This document shows, one piece after another, positions 43,940-52,249 of a DNA stretch of 64,000 nt. Each line of letters opens with the position of its first letter. Position 1 is the stretch's first letter. Under the pieces are notes generated by a model. The model was not told the DNA's origin, did not search any database, and saw only the letters and a program-made list of their open reading frames with translations. Where the stretch lies: the NCBI RefSeq assembly GCF_000963925.1, contig NZ_BAMV01000006.1, positions 1 to 64,000 on the forward strand, written 5' to 3'. Source of the DNA: Acetobacter cibinongensis. GTDB lineage: Bacteria > Pseudomonadota > Alphaproteobacteria > Acetobacterales > Acetobacteraceae. The position numbers and the translations under genes are program-made.

Positions 43940-45391
43940 ATGACCACACCGATGCTGAAATTTATCTCCGTTGCGCAAAAGCAGCCTGACAAGCGGACCG
44001 CACAGGTCCGCCGGGCGGACTTTGCGGAAATTTACGAAGACTTCAGACCAGCGGATGCGGCAGATCAGGCCAGCCGGTGCTCGCAATGTGGTGTGCCATT
44101 CTGCTCCGTTCATTGCCCGTTGGGGAACAATATTCCCGACTGGTTGATGCTGACTGCAAATGGCAGGCTGGAGGAGGCGTATGAAGTCTCTTCAGCAACC
44201 AATTCCTTCCCCGAAATCTGTGGCCGCATCTGCCCGCAGGACCGCCTGTGTGAAGGCAACTGCGTGATTGAGCCGGGGTTTGAGAGTGTTACTATTGGTG
44301 CGGTAGAGCGCTATATTACGGATACTGCGTTTGAGAAGGGATGGGTCAAGCCAACCCGCCCGGTACGCGAGCGTACAGAATCGGTTGCCATTATCGGGGC
44401 AGGGCCAGCCGGGCTTGCTGCGGCGGACCGGTTACGGGCCAAAGGCTATCAGGTGCATGTTTATGACCGTTATGACCGCGTAGGCGGCCTGCTGGTTTAT
44501 GGTATTCCCGGCTTCAAGCTGGAAAAAGAGATTGTTGCCCGCAGGCATGCCCTGCTGGAAGAAAGCGGCGTTGTTTTTCATCTGGGTCAGGCTGTTGGTG
44601 ATAGTGAAGGCGAGCTTTCCTTTGCAGCCCTGCGCCAGCAGCATCAGGCTGTGCTGATTGCAACCGGCGTTTACAAATCTCGCGAGATCGGGGGGCCGGG
44701 GGCTGGGCTGGCAGGGATTGAGCGGGCGCTTGATTATCTGACCGCATCCAACCGCCGCTCTCTGGGAGACACGTTGCCGGAGCAGGATGAATCAGCCCTT
44801 AACGCTGCCGGGAAAGACGTTGTGGTGCTGGGTGGTGGGGACACCGCTATGGACTGCGTCCGCACGGCCATTCGCCAAGGTGCAAAATCCGTAAAATGCC
44901 TTTACCGCCGTGACAAGACCAACATGCCCGGCTCTGCCCGCGAAGTGAAAAATGCGGAAGAGGAAGGTGTGGAATTTGTCTGGCTGGCAGCACCGGAAGC
45001 CTTTGTAGGTGAGGGCACGGTTACAGGTGTACGCGCTACCCGCATGAAACTGGGTATGGCGGATGCCACAGGCCGGCAGGCTGTTGAACCGCTGGAAAAC
45101 AGCTCTTTTACGCTTGAGGCAGATCTGGTCATCAAAGCGCTGGGTTTTGACCCGGAGCCTCTGCCAGAGCAGTGGGGCCAGCAAGATCTGGCAGTGTCCC
45201 GTTGGGGTACGCTTAAGGTAGGGCAAAACAGCTTCATGACCAACCTGCCGGGTGTCTTTGCCGCTGGTGATATTGTGCGCGGCGCCAGCCTTGTTGTGTG
45301 GGCCATTCGGGATGGCCGCGACGCCGCAGACCGTATTCACTCATGGATTCAAGAACACGCATCGGCCGAAGCCGTGGCGGAGCAGGGATAA
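43940..45391 (+). CDS. gltD: Glutamate synthase small subunit
   Basis: A 483-residue NADPH-oxidising subunit of GOGAT. Two N-terminal 4Fe-4S Cys groups: CSQCGVPFCSVHCP (Cys 47, 50, 55, 59) and CGRICPQDRLCEGNC (94-108). The FAD fold is IIGAGPAGLAA (153-158) and the NADPH fold VLGGGDTAMDCVR. It ends FAAGDIVRGASLVVWAI with flavin-binding context. Its stop overlaps the gltB start by one base (TAATG), so translation is coupled. Confidence 0.97.
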   Translation: MTTPMLKFISVAQKQPDKRTAQVRRADFAEIYEDFRPADAADQASRCSQCGVPFCSVHCPLGNNIPDWLMLTANGRLEEAYEVSSATNSFPEICGRICPQDRLCEGNCVIEPGFESVTIGAVERYITDTAFEKGWVKPTRPVRERTESVAIIGAGPAGLAAADRLRAKGYQVHVYDRYDRVGGLLVYGIPGFKLEKEIVARRHALLEESGVVFHLGQAVGDSEGELSFAALRQQHQAVLIATGVYKSREIGGPGAGLAGIERALDYLTASNRRSLGDTLPEQDESALNAAGKDVVVLGGGDTAMDCVRTAIRQGAKSVKCLYRRDKTNMPGSAREVKNAEEEGVEFVWLAAPEAFVGEGTVTGVRATRMKLGMADATGRQAVEPLENSSFTLEADLVIKALGFDPEPLPEQWGQQDLAVSRWGTLKVGQNSFMTNLPGVFAAGDIVRGASLVVWAIRDGRDAADRIHSWIQEHASAEAVAEQG

Positions 45392-48300
45392 TGGACATGG
45401 ATAAGCTCCAGAACACAGGGCGCGGTGAAAGCGCAGAAGAATTTTTCACGGCATGGGATGCAAACGTAGAAGCCCTAGAAGGTCTTTATGACCCTGCGGA
45501 CGAACGGGATTCCTGTGGTGTTGGCCTGATTGCCGCCCTTGATGGCAAACGCCGCCGGGACGTGGTTGAAGCTGGTATTGCCGCCCTGAGCGCCATCTGG
45601 CACCGAGGCGCTGTGGATGCTGACGGTAAAACAGGGGATGGCGCTGGTATTCACGTTGAAATCCCGCAGGATTTCTTTGCCGATGCCATAACCAGCACAG
45701 GCGATCAGCCAGAAGACGGCACCATTATTGCCGTTGGTCAGGTGTTCCTGCCAAAAACGGACATGGTGGCGCAGGAACAGTGCCGCCAGATTATTGAAAC
45801 TGAAATTCTGGCCTTTGGCTACGGCATTTATGGCTGGCGTCAGGTGCCTATAGACACATCCTGCATTGGTGAAAAAGCCAACGCAACACGGCCGGAAATT
45901 GAACAGATCATGATCCGCAACCTGCCCGGTAAGGCAGAGGATGCGTTTGAACGTGACCTGTATGTGATCCGCCGTAAAATTGAAAAAGCAGCTATTGCAG
46001 CACAGGTCGACCTGTATATCTGCTCGCTGTCATGCCGGTCCATTATCTATAAAGGTATGTTTCTGGCGGAACATCTGACCATCTTCTATCCCGATCTGCG
46101 GGATGAGCGGTTTGTCAGCCGTTTTGCCATTTATCACCAGCGCTATTCCACCAACACCTTCCCGACATGGAAGCTGGCGCAGCCTTTCCGGCGTTTGGCG
46201 CATAATGGTGAAATCAACACCATTTCCGGCAACATCAACTGGATGAAGAGCCACGAAACCCGGCTGTCTCACCCAGACCTTGACCCATGGATGGCAGATA
46301 TCAAGCCGCTGGTGCAGGCGGGTGGTTCTGATACGGCCGTGCTGGATAACGTGTTTGAACTGCTGACATTTGCCGGGCGGGATGCGCCTGCCGTCAAGTC
46401 TTTGATGATTCCGGCCAGCGTGGGGGGGAATTCCTCCATGAAGCAGAGCCATAAGGACATGTTTGCGTACTGCAACGCTGTCATGGAGCCATGGGATGGC
46501 CCCGCCGCCCTGTGCGCCACTGATGGCCGCTGGGTTGTGGCCGGGCTGGACCGCTCCGGCCTGCGCCCGCTGCGTTATACGGTTACGGCGGACGGCCTGC
46601 TTATTGTGGGGTCTGAAACCGGTATGGTGCGCGTGCCGGAAAGCAATGTGGTGTCCCGCGGGCGGCTTGGCCCGGGGGATGTCATTGGTGTTGATCTGCA
46701 CGAGCCCAAACTGTACGGCAATGAAGAGTTGCTGGACCTTCTGGCCAGCCGTCAGGAGTTTTCATCCTGGATTGGCCGTATCCAGAAAATTGGGTCCGTT
46801 GTCCGTTCAGATGTGACAGAACCAGTCAATTACGACACGGAAACCCTGCGCCGCCGCCAGTTGGCTGTTGGCACTACGCTGGAAGAACTTGAAGCCATCC
46901 TTCACCCGATGGTGGAAACCGGCAGTGAAGCCATTGGCTCCATGGGGGATGATACACCTCTGGCCGTGCTCTCGCCGCGCTATCGTGGGTTGTCGCACTA
47001 TTTCCGGCAGGGCTTCAGTCAGGTTACCAACCCGCCAATTGACTCCCTGCGTGAATCGCGCGTGATGAGCCTTGTGACGCGGCTTGGTAATCTGGGTAAC
47101 ATTCTGGACCAGTCAGCAGACCAGTGTGAAATGCTGCAACTGCCCAGCCCAGTCCTGACATCTGGCGAGTATGAAGGGCTTGTTGCGTTCTGTGGTGCGT
47201 CCGGCTGTGTGGTGGATTGCACCTTTGCGGTAGCCGAGGGGGAAGCCGGACTGCGGGATGCCATTACCCGCATCCGCCGGGAAGCAGAAGATGCCGTGCG
47301 CGGTGGCTGCACGCATGTGTTTCTGAGTGATGAAGGCCAGTCAGCAGATCGCGCCTATATTCCCATGATTCTGGCTACGGCTGCGGTGCATACGCATCTG
47401 GTCCGTAACTCCTTGCGGACATTCACATCCCTGAACGTGCGTACCTCCACAGCGCTGGATGTTCACGCTATTGCCGTGACCATTGGTGTCGGGGCGACAA
47501 CTGTAAACCCCTATCTGGCACAGGAATGTATTGCAGACCGTCACCGCCGTGGGCTGTTTGATAAACTGACCCTGCGTGAATGCATGGAACGCTACCGTAA
47601 AGCGGTAGATAAAGGCCTGCTCAAGATCATGTCCAAGATGGGTATTTCCATCATGGCTTCTTACCGTGGCGGGTGTAATTTTGAGGCCGTGGGCCTGTCC
47701 CGTGCGCTGACGGCAGAGTTCTTCCCCGGTATGCCATCCCGTATTTCCGGTATTGGTCTGCCCGGTATTGCCCGCAATGTGAAAACTTTCCATGATGAAG
47801 CATGGAACACGGCCAGCCTGACCCTGCCGGTGGGGGGCCTGTATAAAATGCGGCGTGGTGGGGAGCAGCATGCCTTTGACGGCACGCTCATTCACATGCT
47901 GCAAACTGCTGTGGCAACCGACAGTTTTACAATCTACAAGCGGTATGCTGATGCCGTGCGCGCCCAGCCGCCCGTTGCCCTGCGTGACCTGCTGGACTTC
48001 CGTGAAGGCCGTACACCTATTCCGGTAGAAGAGGTGGAAAGCATTACCCAGTTGCGTAAACGCCTGATTGCACCAGCAATTTCCCTTGGTGCCCTCAGCC
48101 CGGAAGCGCACGAGACCCTGTCTATCGCCATGAACCGTATTGGCGCTAAGTCAGACTCAGGTGAGGGTGGGGAAGACCCGGCCCGCGCCAAGCCGCGCGC
48201 CAACGGGGATAATGCGTCTTCTGCCATCAAGCAGGTGGCCTCTGGCCGCTTTGGTGTGACCGCGCAGTATTTGAATGACTGCCGCGAGCTTGAAATTAAA

Positions 48301-49947
48301 ATGGCACAGGGTGCCAAACCGGGTGAAGGCGGGCAGTTGCCGGGCTTTAAGGTAACGCAGCTTATTGCAAAGCTGCGCCATGCCACCCCTGGCGTGACCC
48401 TTATTTCTCCCCCGCCGCACCACGATATTTATTCCATCGAAGATCTGGCGCAGCTTATTTATGACCTGAAGCAGATTAACCCGGATGCAACGGTTACAGT
48501 TAAGCTGGTGGCCCGTTCAGGCATTGGCACCATTGCAGCCGGTGTGGCCAAGGCAAAGGCTGATGCCATCCTTATTTCCGGCCACTCCGGTGGTACCGGG
48601 GCAAGCCCGCAGACATCCGTTAAATATGCGGGCCTGCCGTGGGAGCTGGGGCTGGCGGAAACGCACCAGGTGCTCATGCTCAACCGCCTGCGCCACCGCG
48701 TAAAACTGCGGACCGATGGGGGCATTAAAACCGGGCGTGACGTGGTGATAGCCGCCATGCTGGGTGCGGAAGAGTTTGGTATTGGTACAGCCAGCCTTGT
48801 TGCCATGGGCTGCATTATGGTGCGCCAGTGCCACTCCAACACCTGCCCGGTTGGCGTGTGCTCTCAGGATGAAGAACTGCGGAAAAAGTTTGAAGGTACA
48901 CCGGAAAAGGTCATCAACCTCTTCTCCTTCATTGCGGAAGATGTCCGTAATATTCTGGCAGAACTGGGCTTCCGGACACTGAATGAGGTCATTGGCCGAA
49001 CAGATCTGCTGCGTCAGGTTTCACGTGGAGCAGATTATCTGGACGACCTGGACCTCAACTCCCTGCTGTCTCAGGCAGACCCCGGCCCGTATGCCCGTTA
49101 TTGCACACTGGAAGGCCGGAACGAGGTACCAGACACACTGGACGCCCAGATGATAGGGGATGCAAAACCCCTGTTTGACCACGGTGAGAAAATGCAACTG
49201 CACTACAATGTGCAGAACACGCAGCGCGCCATTGGCACGCGTATTTCCTCACTCATTGTCCGGCAATATGGCATGAAAACACTGGCACCCGGTCACCTGA
49301 CCGTGCGCCTGCGCGGGTCTGCCGGGCAGTCTCTTGGGGCCTTTGCTGTGCAGGGCCTGAAGCTGGAAGTGCTGGGGGATGCCAATGACTATGTTGGCAA
49401 AGGCCTGTCGGGTGCTACCATTACGTTGCGTCCGCCTGCTTCCTCACGGCTTGTTTGCAACCAGAATGCCATTATTGGCAACACGGTGCTGTACGGTGCA
49501 ACCGCAGGTGAACTGTTTGCCTCCGGGCAGGCCGGTGAACGCTTTGCCGTGCGTAATTCTGGCGCAACCGCCGTGGTGGAAGGCTGTGGCTCCAATGCCT
49601 GCGAATATATGACCGGCGGTACGGTTGTTATTCTGGGTGATATTGGGGACAATTTTGGCGCAGGCTTTACTGGCGGCATGGCGTTTGTGCTGGACCAAAC
49701 TGACAGCTTTGAGCGCAAGGTTAACCCGGAAACACTCCTCTGGACCCGTATGGTGCCGGGTGAGTGGGCGGATAAGCTGCGCGAGCTGGTAGAACGGCAT
49801 GTGGCAGAAACGGGTTCCCCTTACGCCACCACGCTGTTGCATAAGTGGGATGAGATCCTGCCCCACTTCTGGCAGATTGTTCCAACGGAGTATGCCAAGA
49901 TTATCGGCTTTGAAGCCCCGGCACAGCCCCTCAAACAAACGGCGTAA
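45391..49947 (+). CDS. gltB: Glutamate synthase large subunit
   Basis: A 1518-residue subunit that makes two glutamates from glutamine and 2-oxoglutarate. The N-terminal class II amidotransferase starts at Cys42 after propeptide ADERDS (CGVGLIAAL), so cleavage before that Cys is expected. Central and FMN domains follow (synthase core near GGTGASPQTSVKYAGLPWEL), with 3Fe-4S Cys in CHSNTCPVGVC. The C-terminal beta-helix has Gly-rich repeats (GGTVVILGDIGDNFGAGFTG). I chose ATG 45391, overlapping gltD, although the frame is open from 45298. With gltD it assimilates ammonium; no glnA is in view. Confidence 0.97.
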   Translation: MDMDKLQNTGRGESAEEFFTAWDANVEALEGLYDPADERDSCGVGLIAALDGKRRRDVVEAGIAALSAIWHRGAVDADGKTGDGAGIHVEIPQDFFADAITSTGDQPEDGTIIAVGQVFLPKTDMVAQEQCRQIIETEILAFGYGIYGWRQVPIDTSCIGEKANATRPEIEQIMIRNLPGKAEDAFERDLYVIRRKIEKAAIAAQVDLYICSLSCRSIIYKGMFLAEHLTIFYPDLRDERFVSRFAIYHQRYSTNTFPTWKLAQPFRRLAHNGEINTISGNINWMKSHETRLSHPDLDPWMADIKPLVQAGGSDTAVLDNVFELLTFAGRDAPAVKSLMIPASVGGNSSMKQSHKDMFAYCNAVMEPWDGPAALCATDGRWVVAGLDRSGLRPLRYTVTADGLLIVGSETGMVRVPESNVVSRGRLGPGDVIGVDLHEPKLYGNEELLDLLASRQEFSSWIGRIQKIGSVVRSDVTEPVNYDTETLRRRQLAVGTTLEELEAILHPMVETGSEAIGSMGDDTPLAVLSPRYRGLSHYFRQGFSQVTNPPIDSLRESRVMSLVTRLGNLGNILDQSADQCEMLQLPSPVLTSGEYEGLVAFCGASGCVVDCTFAVAEGEAGLRDAITRIRREAEDAVRGGCTHVFLSDEGQSADRAYIPMILATAAVHTHLVRNSLRTFTSLNVRTSTALDVHAIAVTIGVGATTVNPYLAQECIADRHRRGLFDKLTLRECMERYRKAVDKGLLKIMSKMGISIMASYRGGCNFEAVGLSRALTAEFFPGMPSRISGIGLPGIARNVKTFHDEAWNTASLTLPVGGLYKMRRGGEQHAFDGTLIHMLQTAVATDSFTIYKRYADAVRAQPPVALRDLLDFREGRTPIPVEEVESITQLRKRLIAPAISLGALSPEAHETLSIAMNRIGAKSDSGEGGEDPARAKPRANGDNASSAIKQVASGRFGVTAQYLNDCRELEIKMAQGAKPGEGGQLPGFKVTQLIAKLRHATPGVTLISPPPHHDIYSIEDLAQLIYDLKQINPDATVTVKLVARSGIGTIAAGVAKAKADAILISGHSGGTGASPQTSVKYAGLPWELGLAETHQVLMLNRLRHRVKLRTDGGIKTGRDVVIAAMLGAEEFGIGTASLVAMGCIMVRQCHSNTCPVGVCSQDEELRKKFEGTPEKVINLFSFIAEDVRNILAELGFRTLNEVIGRTDLLRQVSRGADYLDDLDLNSLLSQADPGPYARYCTLEGRNEVPDTLDAQMIGDAKPLFDHGEKMQLHYNVQNTQRAIGTRISSLIVRQYGMKTLAPGHLTVRLRGSAGQSLGAFAVQGLKLEVLGDANDYVGKGLSGATITLRPPASSRLVCNQNAIIGNTVLYGATAGELFASGQAGERFAVRNSGATAVVEGCGSNACEYMTGGTVVILGDIGDNFGAGFTGGMAFVLDQTDSFERKVNPETLLWTRMVPGEWADKLRELVERHVAETGSPYATTLLHKWDEILPHFWQIVPTEYAKIIGFEAPAQPLKQTA

Positions 49948-50210
49948 AACCTGACACAGGCAGGCCAGTCCCTCGGAAGAGCCGCATTGCAGCAGCTTTT
50001 TCAGGGGGCTGGCCCGTTTGTTTTGAGCCAGACCGCTTTTGTGCACCGTGGTTGCCAAAACTATGCTACCAAACTTTACCCCTCTTTTTTGAGAGATAAC
50101 GAAATTCTTTGAAAATCAAATAGATAGCTAGATGCCCCGAAAAAAAGGGTAAAATGGCTAAACAGGCAATAAACCGCAGTTTCTCAAAGCGTTAGCCAAA
50201 ATTTGCTCTA
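49948..50210 (+). promoter_or_regulatory. AT-rich leader before the CRISPR mini-array
   Basis: 263 bases between gltB and the first CRISPR repeat. From about 50070 it is AT-rich, with cccctcttttttgagag and a run of eight or so As at 50141-50147 and AATCAA, resembling type I-F leaders in composition. A leader is expected upstream of the end with GTTCACTGCC. There is no gene here. Confidence 0.4.
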
Positions 50211-50298
50211 GTTCACTGCCGCACAGGCAGCTCAGAAAAACCTGCAAATTGACTAGAAAATCAGAATTAAGTTCACTGCCGCAAAGGCAGTTCCCACA
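50211..50298 (+). CRISPR. Orphan type I-F CRISPR mini-array (two repeats, one spacer)
   Basis: Repeat 1 is 50211-50238 (28 bases), starting GTTCACTGCCGCACAGGCAG; from memory it is one base from the Yersinia/Pectobacterium I-F repeat. The spacer is 50239-50270, exactly 32 bases, AT-rich (9 G/C). Repeat 2 is 50271-50298; 23 of 28 bases match, with mismatches at repeat positions 14, 21, 24, 25 and 27, mostly at the 3' end as expected for a terminal repeat. The 60-base period (28+32) is the I-F period. Each repeat has the CTGCC/GGCAG hairpin that Cas6f (Csy4) recognises. No cas gene lies in the window, so interference would depend on genes elsewhere, or the array is a relic. Confidence 0.85.
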
Positions 50299-50395: not shown

Positions 50396-52249
50396 ATGGA
50401 ACATACAGCGCATTTCCTTCGTTCGTCCTCGCGTCCGGCCTTAGCGGCGGAAGCAGGTGTTGCCACAGCGGCTCAGGCACAGCACGGGGCTGGGGATACT
50501 CTGCCCCGGTGGGATCTTTCCGCGCTTTATAGTGGGATGGAAGATCCGGCACTGGCGCAGGATCTGGCAGATGCCCAGACGCAGGCCTCAGCCTTTTCTG
50601 CCCGTTATCAGGGTAAGCTGGCCAGCCTGTCCGCCGCCCAGTTGGCCCAAGCCATTGTGGAGAGCGAAGCGATTGATGAAAAGCTGGGCAAGGCCGGGTC
50701 TTATGCGTCCCTACTGTTTGCAGCCAATTCATCAGACCCTGCTATCAGCCGGTTCAGCCAGTCCATCAACGAACGCCTGACAGATATTTCAGGAGACCTT
50801 CTGTTCTTCACGCTGGAAATCAACCGGCTGGAAGAGGCTGACCTTGAGGAAAAACTGAAAGACCCGGCCCTTGCGCATTGGGCTCCCTTCTTGCGGGATA
50901 CACGGCTGTTCCGCCCGCACCAGCTTTCTGATGCCGTTGAAAAAGTGCTGCTTGAAAAATCCGTAACAGGAGCCCAGTCATGGTGCCGCCTGTTTGATGA
51001 GACGATTGCCGCCCTGCGCGTCACGCTGGATGGTGAGAGCGTAACCGTTGGGGATGCCCTGAACCGCCTGTCAGATACAGACCGCGCAGTGCGGGAGCGG
51101 GCAGGTAAGGCGGTAGGCGCTGTCTTTGCAGATAATATCCGCCTGTTTGCGCTTATTACCAATACGCTGGCTAAAGATAAGGCCATTACGGATAACCTGC
51201 GCCAGTTTGCACGGCCTACATCCTCCCGCAACCTGAGCAACATGGTTGAAGATGAGGTGGTGGATGCGCTGGTTTCTGCCGTGCGGGCGGATTACCCACG
51301 CCTTGCCCATCGTTATTACGGCCTGAAAGCCAAATGGATGGGGCTGGAAAAACTGGAGCATTGGGACCGCAATGCCCCGCTGCCCGGTACGGAAGACCGC
51401 AAAATTGCGTGGGATGAAGCCAAGTCCATTGTGCAGAAAGCCTATACGGACTTTGACCCCCGCATGGGTGCCGTTATTAACACGTTCCTGACCAGTCCGT
51501 GGATTGACGTGCCACCCGCACCCGGAAAAAGCCCCGGCGCTTTTGCCCATCCTACGGTGCCATCTGCCCATCCGTTTATTCTGCTCAACTATCACGGGCG
51601 CACGCGGGATGTGATGACTCTGGCGCATGAGTTGGGGCATGGGGTGCATCAGGTTCTGGCCGCCAAGCAAGGCTATTACCTGTCCAACACACCGTTGACA
51701 CTGGCGGAGACTGCCAGCGTGTTTGGGGAAATGCTGACCTTCCAGTCCCTGCTGGATGCAGAGCAGGACCCCGCCCGCAAGCGTACTTTGCTGGCAGGCA
51801 AGGTGGAGGACATGCTCAATACCGTTGTGCGCCAGATTGCGTTTTACGAATTTGAAACCCGCGTGCATGATGAGCGTAAGAAAGGCGAGCTTCTGCCAGA
51901 ACGGATTGGTGAAATCTGGCAGCAGGTACAGACAGAAAGCCTTGGTCCAGCCTTTAACTTCACCTCAGACTATGATGTGTTCTGGGCCTATATTCCGCAC
52001 TTCATTCATTCCCCGTTCTATGTGTATGCCTATGCGTTTGGGGATTGTCTGGTCAATGCGCTGTATGGTGTGTTCAACGAAGGCGCTCCGGGTTTTCAGG
52101 ACAAATACATCGCCATGCTGGAAGCCGGTGGCACCCTGCGCCACAAGGAGCTTCTGGCGCCCTTCGGGCTGGATGCGTCTGACCCGCAATTCTGGAAAAA
52201 AGGGCTGGATGTTATTTCCGGCTTCATTGACCAACTGGAACAGGTCTAA
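50396..52249 (+). CDS. pepF: M3-family oligoendopeptidase F
   Basis: A 617-residue cytoplasmic zinc metallopeptidase cutting short peptides. The zinc site HELGH is at 411-415 (TLAHELGHGVHQVL), and the third ligand Glu follows in LAETASVFGEMLTF. The helical N-terminal lobe is complete and the length normal. No signal peptide. The ATG at 50396 has gagggc upstream. The gene follows the CRISPR mini-array by 97 bases and is 3 bases before the ABC1 kinase gene, so the two form an operon. Confidence 0.94.
   Translation: MEHTAHFLRSSSRPALAAEAGVATAAQAQHGAGDTLPRWDLSALYSGMEDPALAQDLADAQTQASAFSARYQGKLASLSAAQLAQAIVESEAIDEKLGKAGSYASLLFAANSSDPAISRFSQSINERLTDISGDLLFFTLEINRLEEADLEEKLKDPALAHWAPFLRDTRLFRPHQLSDAVEKVLLEKSVTGAQSWCRLFDETIAALRVTLDGESVTVGDALNRLSDTDRAVRERAGKAVGAVFADNIRLFALITNTLAKDKAITDNLRQFARPTSSRNLSNMVEDEVVDALVSAVRADYPRLAHRYYGLKAKWMGLEKLEHWDRNAPLPGTEDRKIAWDEAKSIVQKAYTDFDPRMGAVINTFLTSPWIDVPPAPGKSPGAFAHPTVPSAHPFILLNYHGRTRDVMTLAHELGHGVHQVLAAKQGYYLSNTPLTLAETASVFGEMLTFQSLLDAEQDPARKRTLLAGKVEDMLNTVVRQIAFYEFETRVHDERKKGELLPERIGEIWQQVQTESLGPAFNFTSDYDVFWAYIPHFIHSPFYVYAYAFGDCLVNALYGVFNEGAPGFQDKYIAMLEAGGTLRHKELLAPFGLDASDPQFWKKGLDVISGFIDQLEQV

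Follow-up and report, generated by a model that had tools for sequence, protein, structure and literature searches.

In Zymomonas mobilis, CRISPRs carrying the same repeat as the type I-F cas loci are scattered elsewhere in the genome (PMC5294841). Type I-F systems, either intact or eroded, have also been reported in Acetobacter (PMC9379143). In E. coli, a single I-F1 repeat-spacer-repeat unit served as the array in a test of I-F1 interference (PMC7296934). The CreTA unit of Acinetobacter I-F, which has a toxin RNA as its neighbour and a CC-flanked partial target nearby, is located between cas3 and csy1 (PMC10097628). The mini-array described here was found in a 64-kb window, the whole stretch of Acetobacter cibinongensis DNA that was analysed. 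As in Z. mobilis, an alphaproteobacterial genome combines one I-F cas locus with dispersed CRISPRs of the same repeat; unlike the dispersed arrays of that organism, the mini-array has one spacer only. It shares with CreTA the presence of a one-spacer mini-CRISPR in an I-F genome, but none of the CreTA surroundings was seen for it. The mini-array and its neighbours are as follows.

45298-49947, plus strand: gltB, glutamate synthase large subunit (NCBIfam NF008730), the left neighbour and a core gene.
50075-50210 (start approximate), plus strand: CRISPR leader of about 135 bp, AT-rich, ending in CTCTA at the repeat and sharing homology with the genome's two other leaders.
50114-50126, plus strand: IHF-like site AATCAAATAGATA, which agrees with WATCAANNNNTTR at 12/13 positions and has its first base at -97 relative to the leader-repeat junction.
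50211-50238, plus strand: repeat 1 (R1), GTTCACTGCCGCACAGGCAGCTCAGAAA, equal to the I-F consensus repeat of the genome, with a Csy4-type hairpin.
50239-50270, plus strand: the single 32-nt spacer, AACCTGCAAATTGACTAGAAAATCAGAATTAA, for which no protospacer was found.
50271-50298, plus strand: repeat 2 (R2), GTTCACTGCCGCAAAGGCAGTTCCCACA, the terminal, trailer-end repeat, with a degenerate 3′ part and the hairpin retained.
50396-52249, plus strand: M3-family oligoendopeptidase (pepF-like; NCBIfam TIGR02290), the right neighbour and a core gene.

The repeat-spacer-repeat unit occupies positions 50211-50298 in a 28/32/28 nt arrangement, and the coordinates agree with an earlier note, made from the letters of the window, that had described two 28-base I-F repeats around exactly 32 bases. 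The spacer length is that of a type I-F array, the spacers of the other arrays in the genome being 32-33 nt long. Comparison with the Rfam family CRISPR-DR4 (RF01317, gathering score 35) gave 47.5 bits for R1, which supplied the repeat-database match proposed as a check in that note, and 21.6 bits, under the gathering score, for R2. R1 was not matched in shuffled windows and is far beyond chance. The stem-loop expected for Csy4 folds in both repeats, as does befit 28-nt I-F repeats, so that the hairpins and the degeneracy of the terminal repeat were both borne out. The degenerate 3′ part of R2 might disturb processing, though the hairpin is retained. Nonetheless, both other arrays of the genome end in a degenerate repeat, and the state of R2 is therefore that of a normal trailer end.

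As the earlier note had reported, neither cas nor tns (Tn7) genes were seen near the mini-array within the window, where its neighbours are core genes. The gltB-pepF gap measures 448 bp with the array, while 16 congeners have a repeat-free gap of 106-343 bp and A. orientalis one of about 142 bp. The array was thus absent from this locus in 17/17 congeners, contrary to the possibility, raised in the note as grounds for doubt, that the repeat pair is present in all relatives. A conserved stretch lying immediately upstream of the peptidase gene has been retained. Since the relatives are too distant, the boundaries of the insertion are only approximate. Within the genus, the repeat is carried by 2 of the 49 genomes.

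The picture changed when the rest of the genome (3.10 Mb in 120 contigs) was inspected by pattern searches and by analysis of selected sequence stretches. Contig C111 has a repeat identical to R1 at two more positions, and the end of contig C109 has one with a single mismatch. Contig C111 also carries a complete I-F cas operon: cas1, cas2/3, csy1, csy2, csy3 and csy4 all have open frames, and the six I-F genes (cas1f, cas3f, csy1, csy2, csy3 and csy4) all exceed the curated NCBIfam cut-offs. The cas genes are followed by an array of three repeats plus a degenerate terminal repeat. The other array, array 2, runs off the start of C111; its trailer is probably the one at the end of C109, a join across the contig gap that we infer. 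The genome search suggested in the note for cas1, cas3, csy1-4 and same-repeat arrays thus recovered all of them on other contigs. Because the genome includes a complete I-F operon and two arrays with the identical repeat, the mini-array is not an orphan, and that description, although understandable within the window, does not hold at the genome level.

The leader, which the earlier note missed while describing the repeats and the spacer correctly, connects the mini-array with these other arrays. Its AT content is 64%, compared to 44% for the window. Leader and repeats together are 73% identical over 210 nt to the cas-adjacent region C111:86972-87183, and when the leaders alone were aligned, the cas-adjacent leader gave a z value of 17.6 and that of array 2 a weaker one of 6.7. 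The mini-array thus has the AT-rich upstream leader, homologous to the cas-adjacent one, of a type I-F array. At the leader-repeat junction CTCTA is followed by GTTCACTG, and the CTCTA end is common to all three leaders of the genome. An IHF-like site matching at 12/13 or better begins at exactly -97 in 3/3 of these leaders; among the A. orientalis leaders, such a site (at least 12/13) lies at -97 in one and a 13/13 site at -96 in another. IHF is critical in type I-F leaders, where it folds the DNA for integration (PMC12259127); the strain has genes for four proteins assigned to the IHF/HU family. The length of the leader is close to the 131 bp of Serratia I-F leaders (PMC6780938) and exceeds the 100 bp of leader that supported a high acquisition rate in Acinetobacter I-F (PMC9602844). 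A promoter scan returned one weak site, near chance level.

Very likely the mini-array is a third array, smaller than the other two, of the strain's own type I-F1 system, and the distant cas operon serves it in trans. What can be read directly from the DNA is the anatomy of the unit, its homologous and phased leader, the identity of the repeat, the integrity of the cas genes and the lack of this array in congeners. Judging from these sequences, transcription, processing, interference and adaptation could proceed as follows. The leader would drive transcription of the mini-array and Csy4 would cut both hairpin repeats, releasing one crRNA. Csy1-3 and Cas2/3 would then use this crRNA against DNA bearing a CC PAM, and Cas1-Cas2/3, together with IHF, could insert further spacers at the leader-R1 junction. 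Of the three options that the earlier note had offered for the mini-array, these results favour the borrowing of an I-F system encoded elsewhere over a bare relic or a non-defence function.

The target of the spacer was sought in the strain's own genome, in plasmids and in phages, as had been proposed, as well as in 397 genomes of the family, GTDB genomes and IMG/VR. Every sixth base was left free, 3 mismatches were allowed in the 397 family genomes, and BLAST was used for phages and plasmids. No target was found in any of these collections, and no other genome among those searched shares the spacer. Matches to a Mammaliicoccus phage, Enterococcus, Niallia and Jeotgalibacillus were weak (E 0.9-9) and not credible. 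Three other spacers of the strain likewise had no match in IMG/VR, so the missing target says little about the mini-array. Most spacers in general have no known targets. As a positive control for the search, the first spacer of array 2 (locus C111:193-220) matched the Gluconacetobacter diazotrophicus plasmid pGDIPal5I at 30/32 positions, with CC, the I-F PAM, directly upstream. This protospacer lies in a gap upstream of a gene for a TraM-recognition-domain protein. The match indicates that the system has sampled acetobacterial plasmids, and with its 30/32 identity and CC PAM it makes the I-F system look like an ordinary plasmid and phage defence.

A different reading sees in the mini-array what decay has left of a once longer array: the repeat-spacer-repeat shape would persist, but transcription and the gain of spacers would have ceased. 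The presence of one spacer only, the degenerate R2 and a leader that is 73% identical to the cas-adjacent one instead of near-identical would fit such decay. However, R1 is letter-perfect, the IHF-like phasing is retained, and the leaders of the larger arrays here and in A. orientalis diverge equally among themselves. With a consensus R1 and a homologous, phased leader the mini-array is unlike a bare relic, and we consider this explanation unlikely.

Another one-spacer array provided a comparison. A. orientalis 21F-2 has a leader-bearing array with a single spacer at C47:77091-77178 (NZ_BAMX01000020), which has in common with the mini-array the repeat core and a homologous leader; its terminal repeat has GGCAGTTC in place of GGCAGCTC, and GGCAGTTC is also present in the terminal repeat of the mini-array. 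The two differ in the spacer and in the locus, the A. orientalis array being located beside a mazG-like gene. I-F repeats occur on four contigs of this strain. One of them, C53, has a further repeat-spacer-repeat (268779-268859) at the contig end, with only about 15 bases after it, and its second repeat has a one-base deletion (CACTGCGCACAGG). No match to csy4 was found in the A. orientalis 21F-2 draft genome; consequently, its arrays may be truly orphan or the cas locus may be missing from the assembly. One unit here and a similar one that A. orientalis carries at another locus raise the idea that leader plus one-spacer units disperse as cassettes in Acetobacter, leader and array being copied together into intergenic regions, to which we give little credence.

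The spacer might instead be a regulatory guide like CreA or CreR, directing Cascade to partly matching chromosomal DNA and repressing a toxin RNA or the cas genes. A single repeat-spacer-repeat unit with one degenerate repeat does resemble creA genes (PMC10097628). Yet CC-flanked partial matches in the intergenic region, upstream of cas1, in the cas locus and in the window were no better than those of shuffled spacers, and no such target was found near a toxin RNA or a cas promoter. When the PAM and the first 22 spacer positions (19 scored) were searched with up to 3 mismatches, there was no match elsewhere in the genome; weaker matches, as CreA tolerates, were covered in the neighbourhood, the cas locus and selected stretches. 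The only mini-ORF with a Shine-Dalgarno sequence has 3 residues. Furthermore, the array does not lie beside cas genes, none having been seen in the window and the operon being on C111, it has an adaptation-type leader, and neither spacer nor locus is conserved in congeners. A regulatory function is therefore highly improbable. I-F3 systems lack cas1 and cas2/3 and have a fused cas8-cas5; a homing guide of a type I-F3 Tn7-like transposon, which the degenerate repeat and short array might recall, is extremely unlikely, contradicted as it is by the intact cas1 and cas2/3, the separate csy1 and csy2, and a window with neither tns genes nor a transposon and only core genes around the array. The non-defence guide suggested in the earlier note thus found no support in either a regulatory or a homing role.

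As the probable third array of the I-F1 system, the mini-array adds one more example to an arrangement already known, and it is neither an orphan nor a sign of a new function. The main value of the analysis is one of correction: an apparent orphan in a 64-kb window belongs to a system that is encoded in full on another contig. Should such dispersed units of leader and array turn up again, the route by which they reach new loci would become a testable question.
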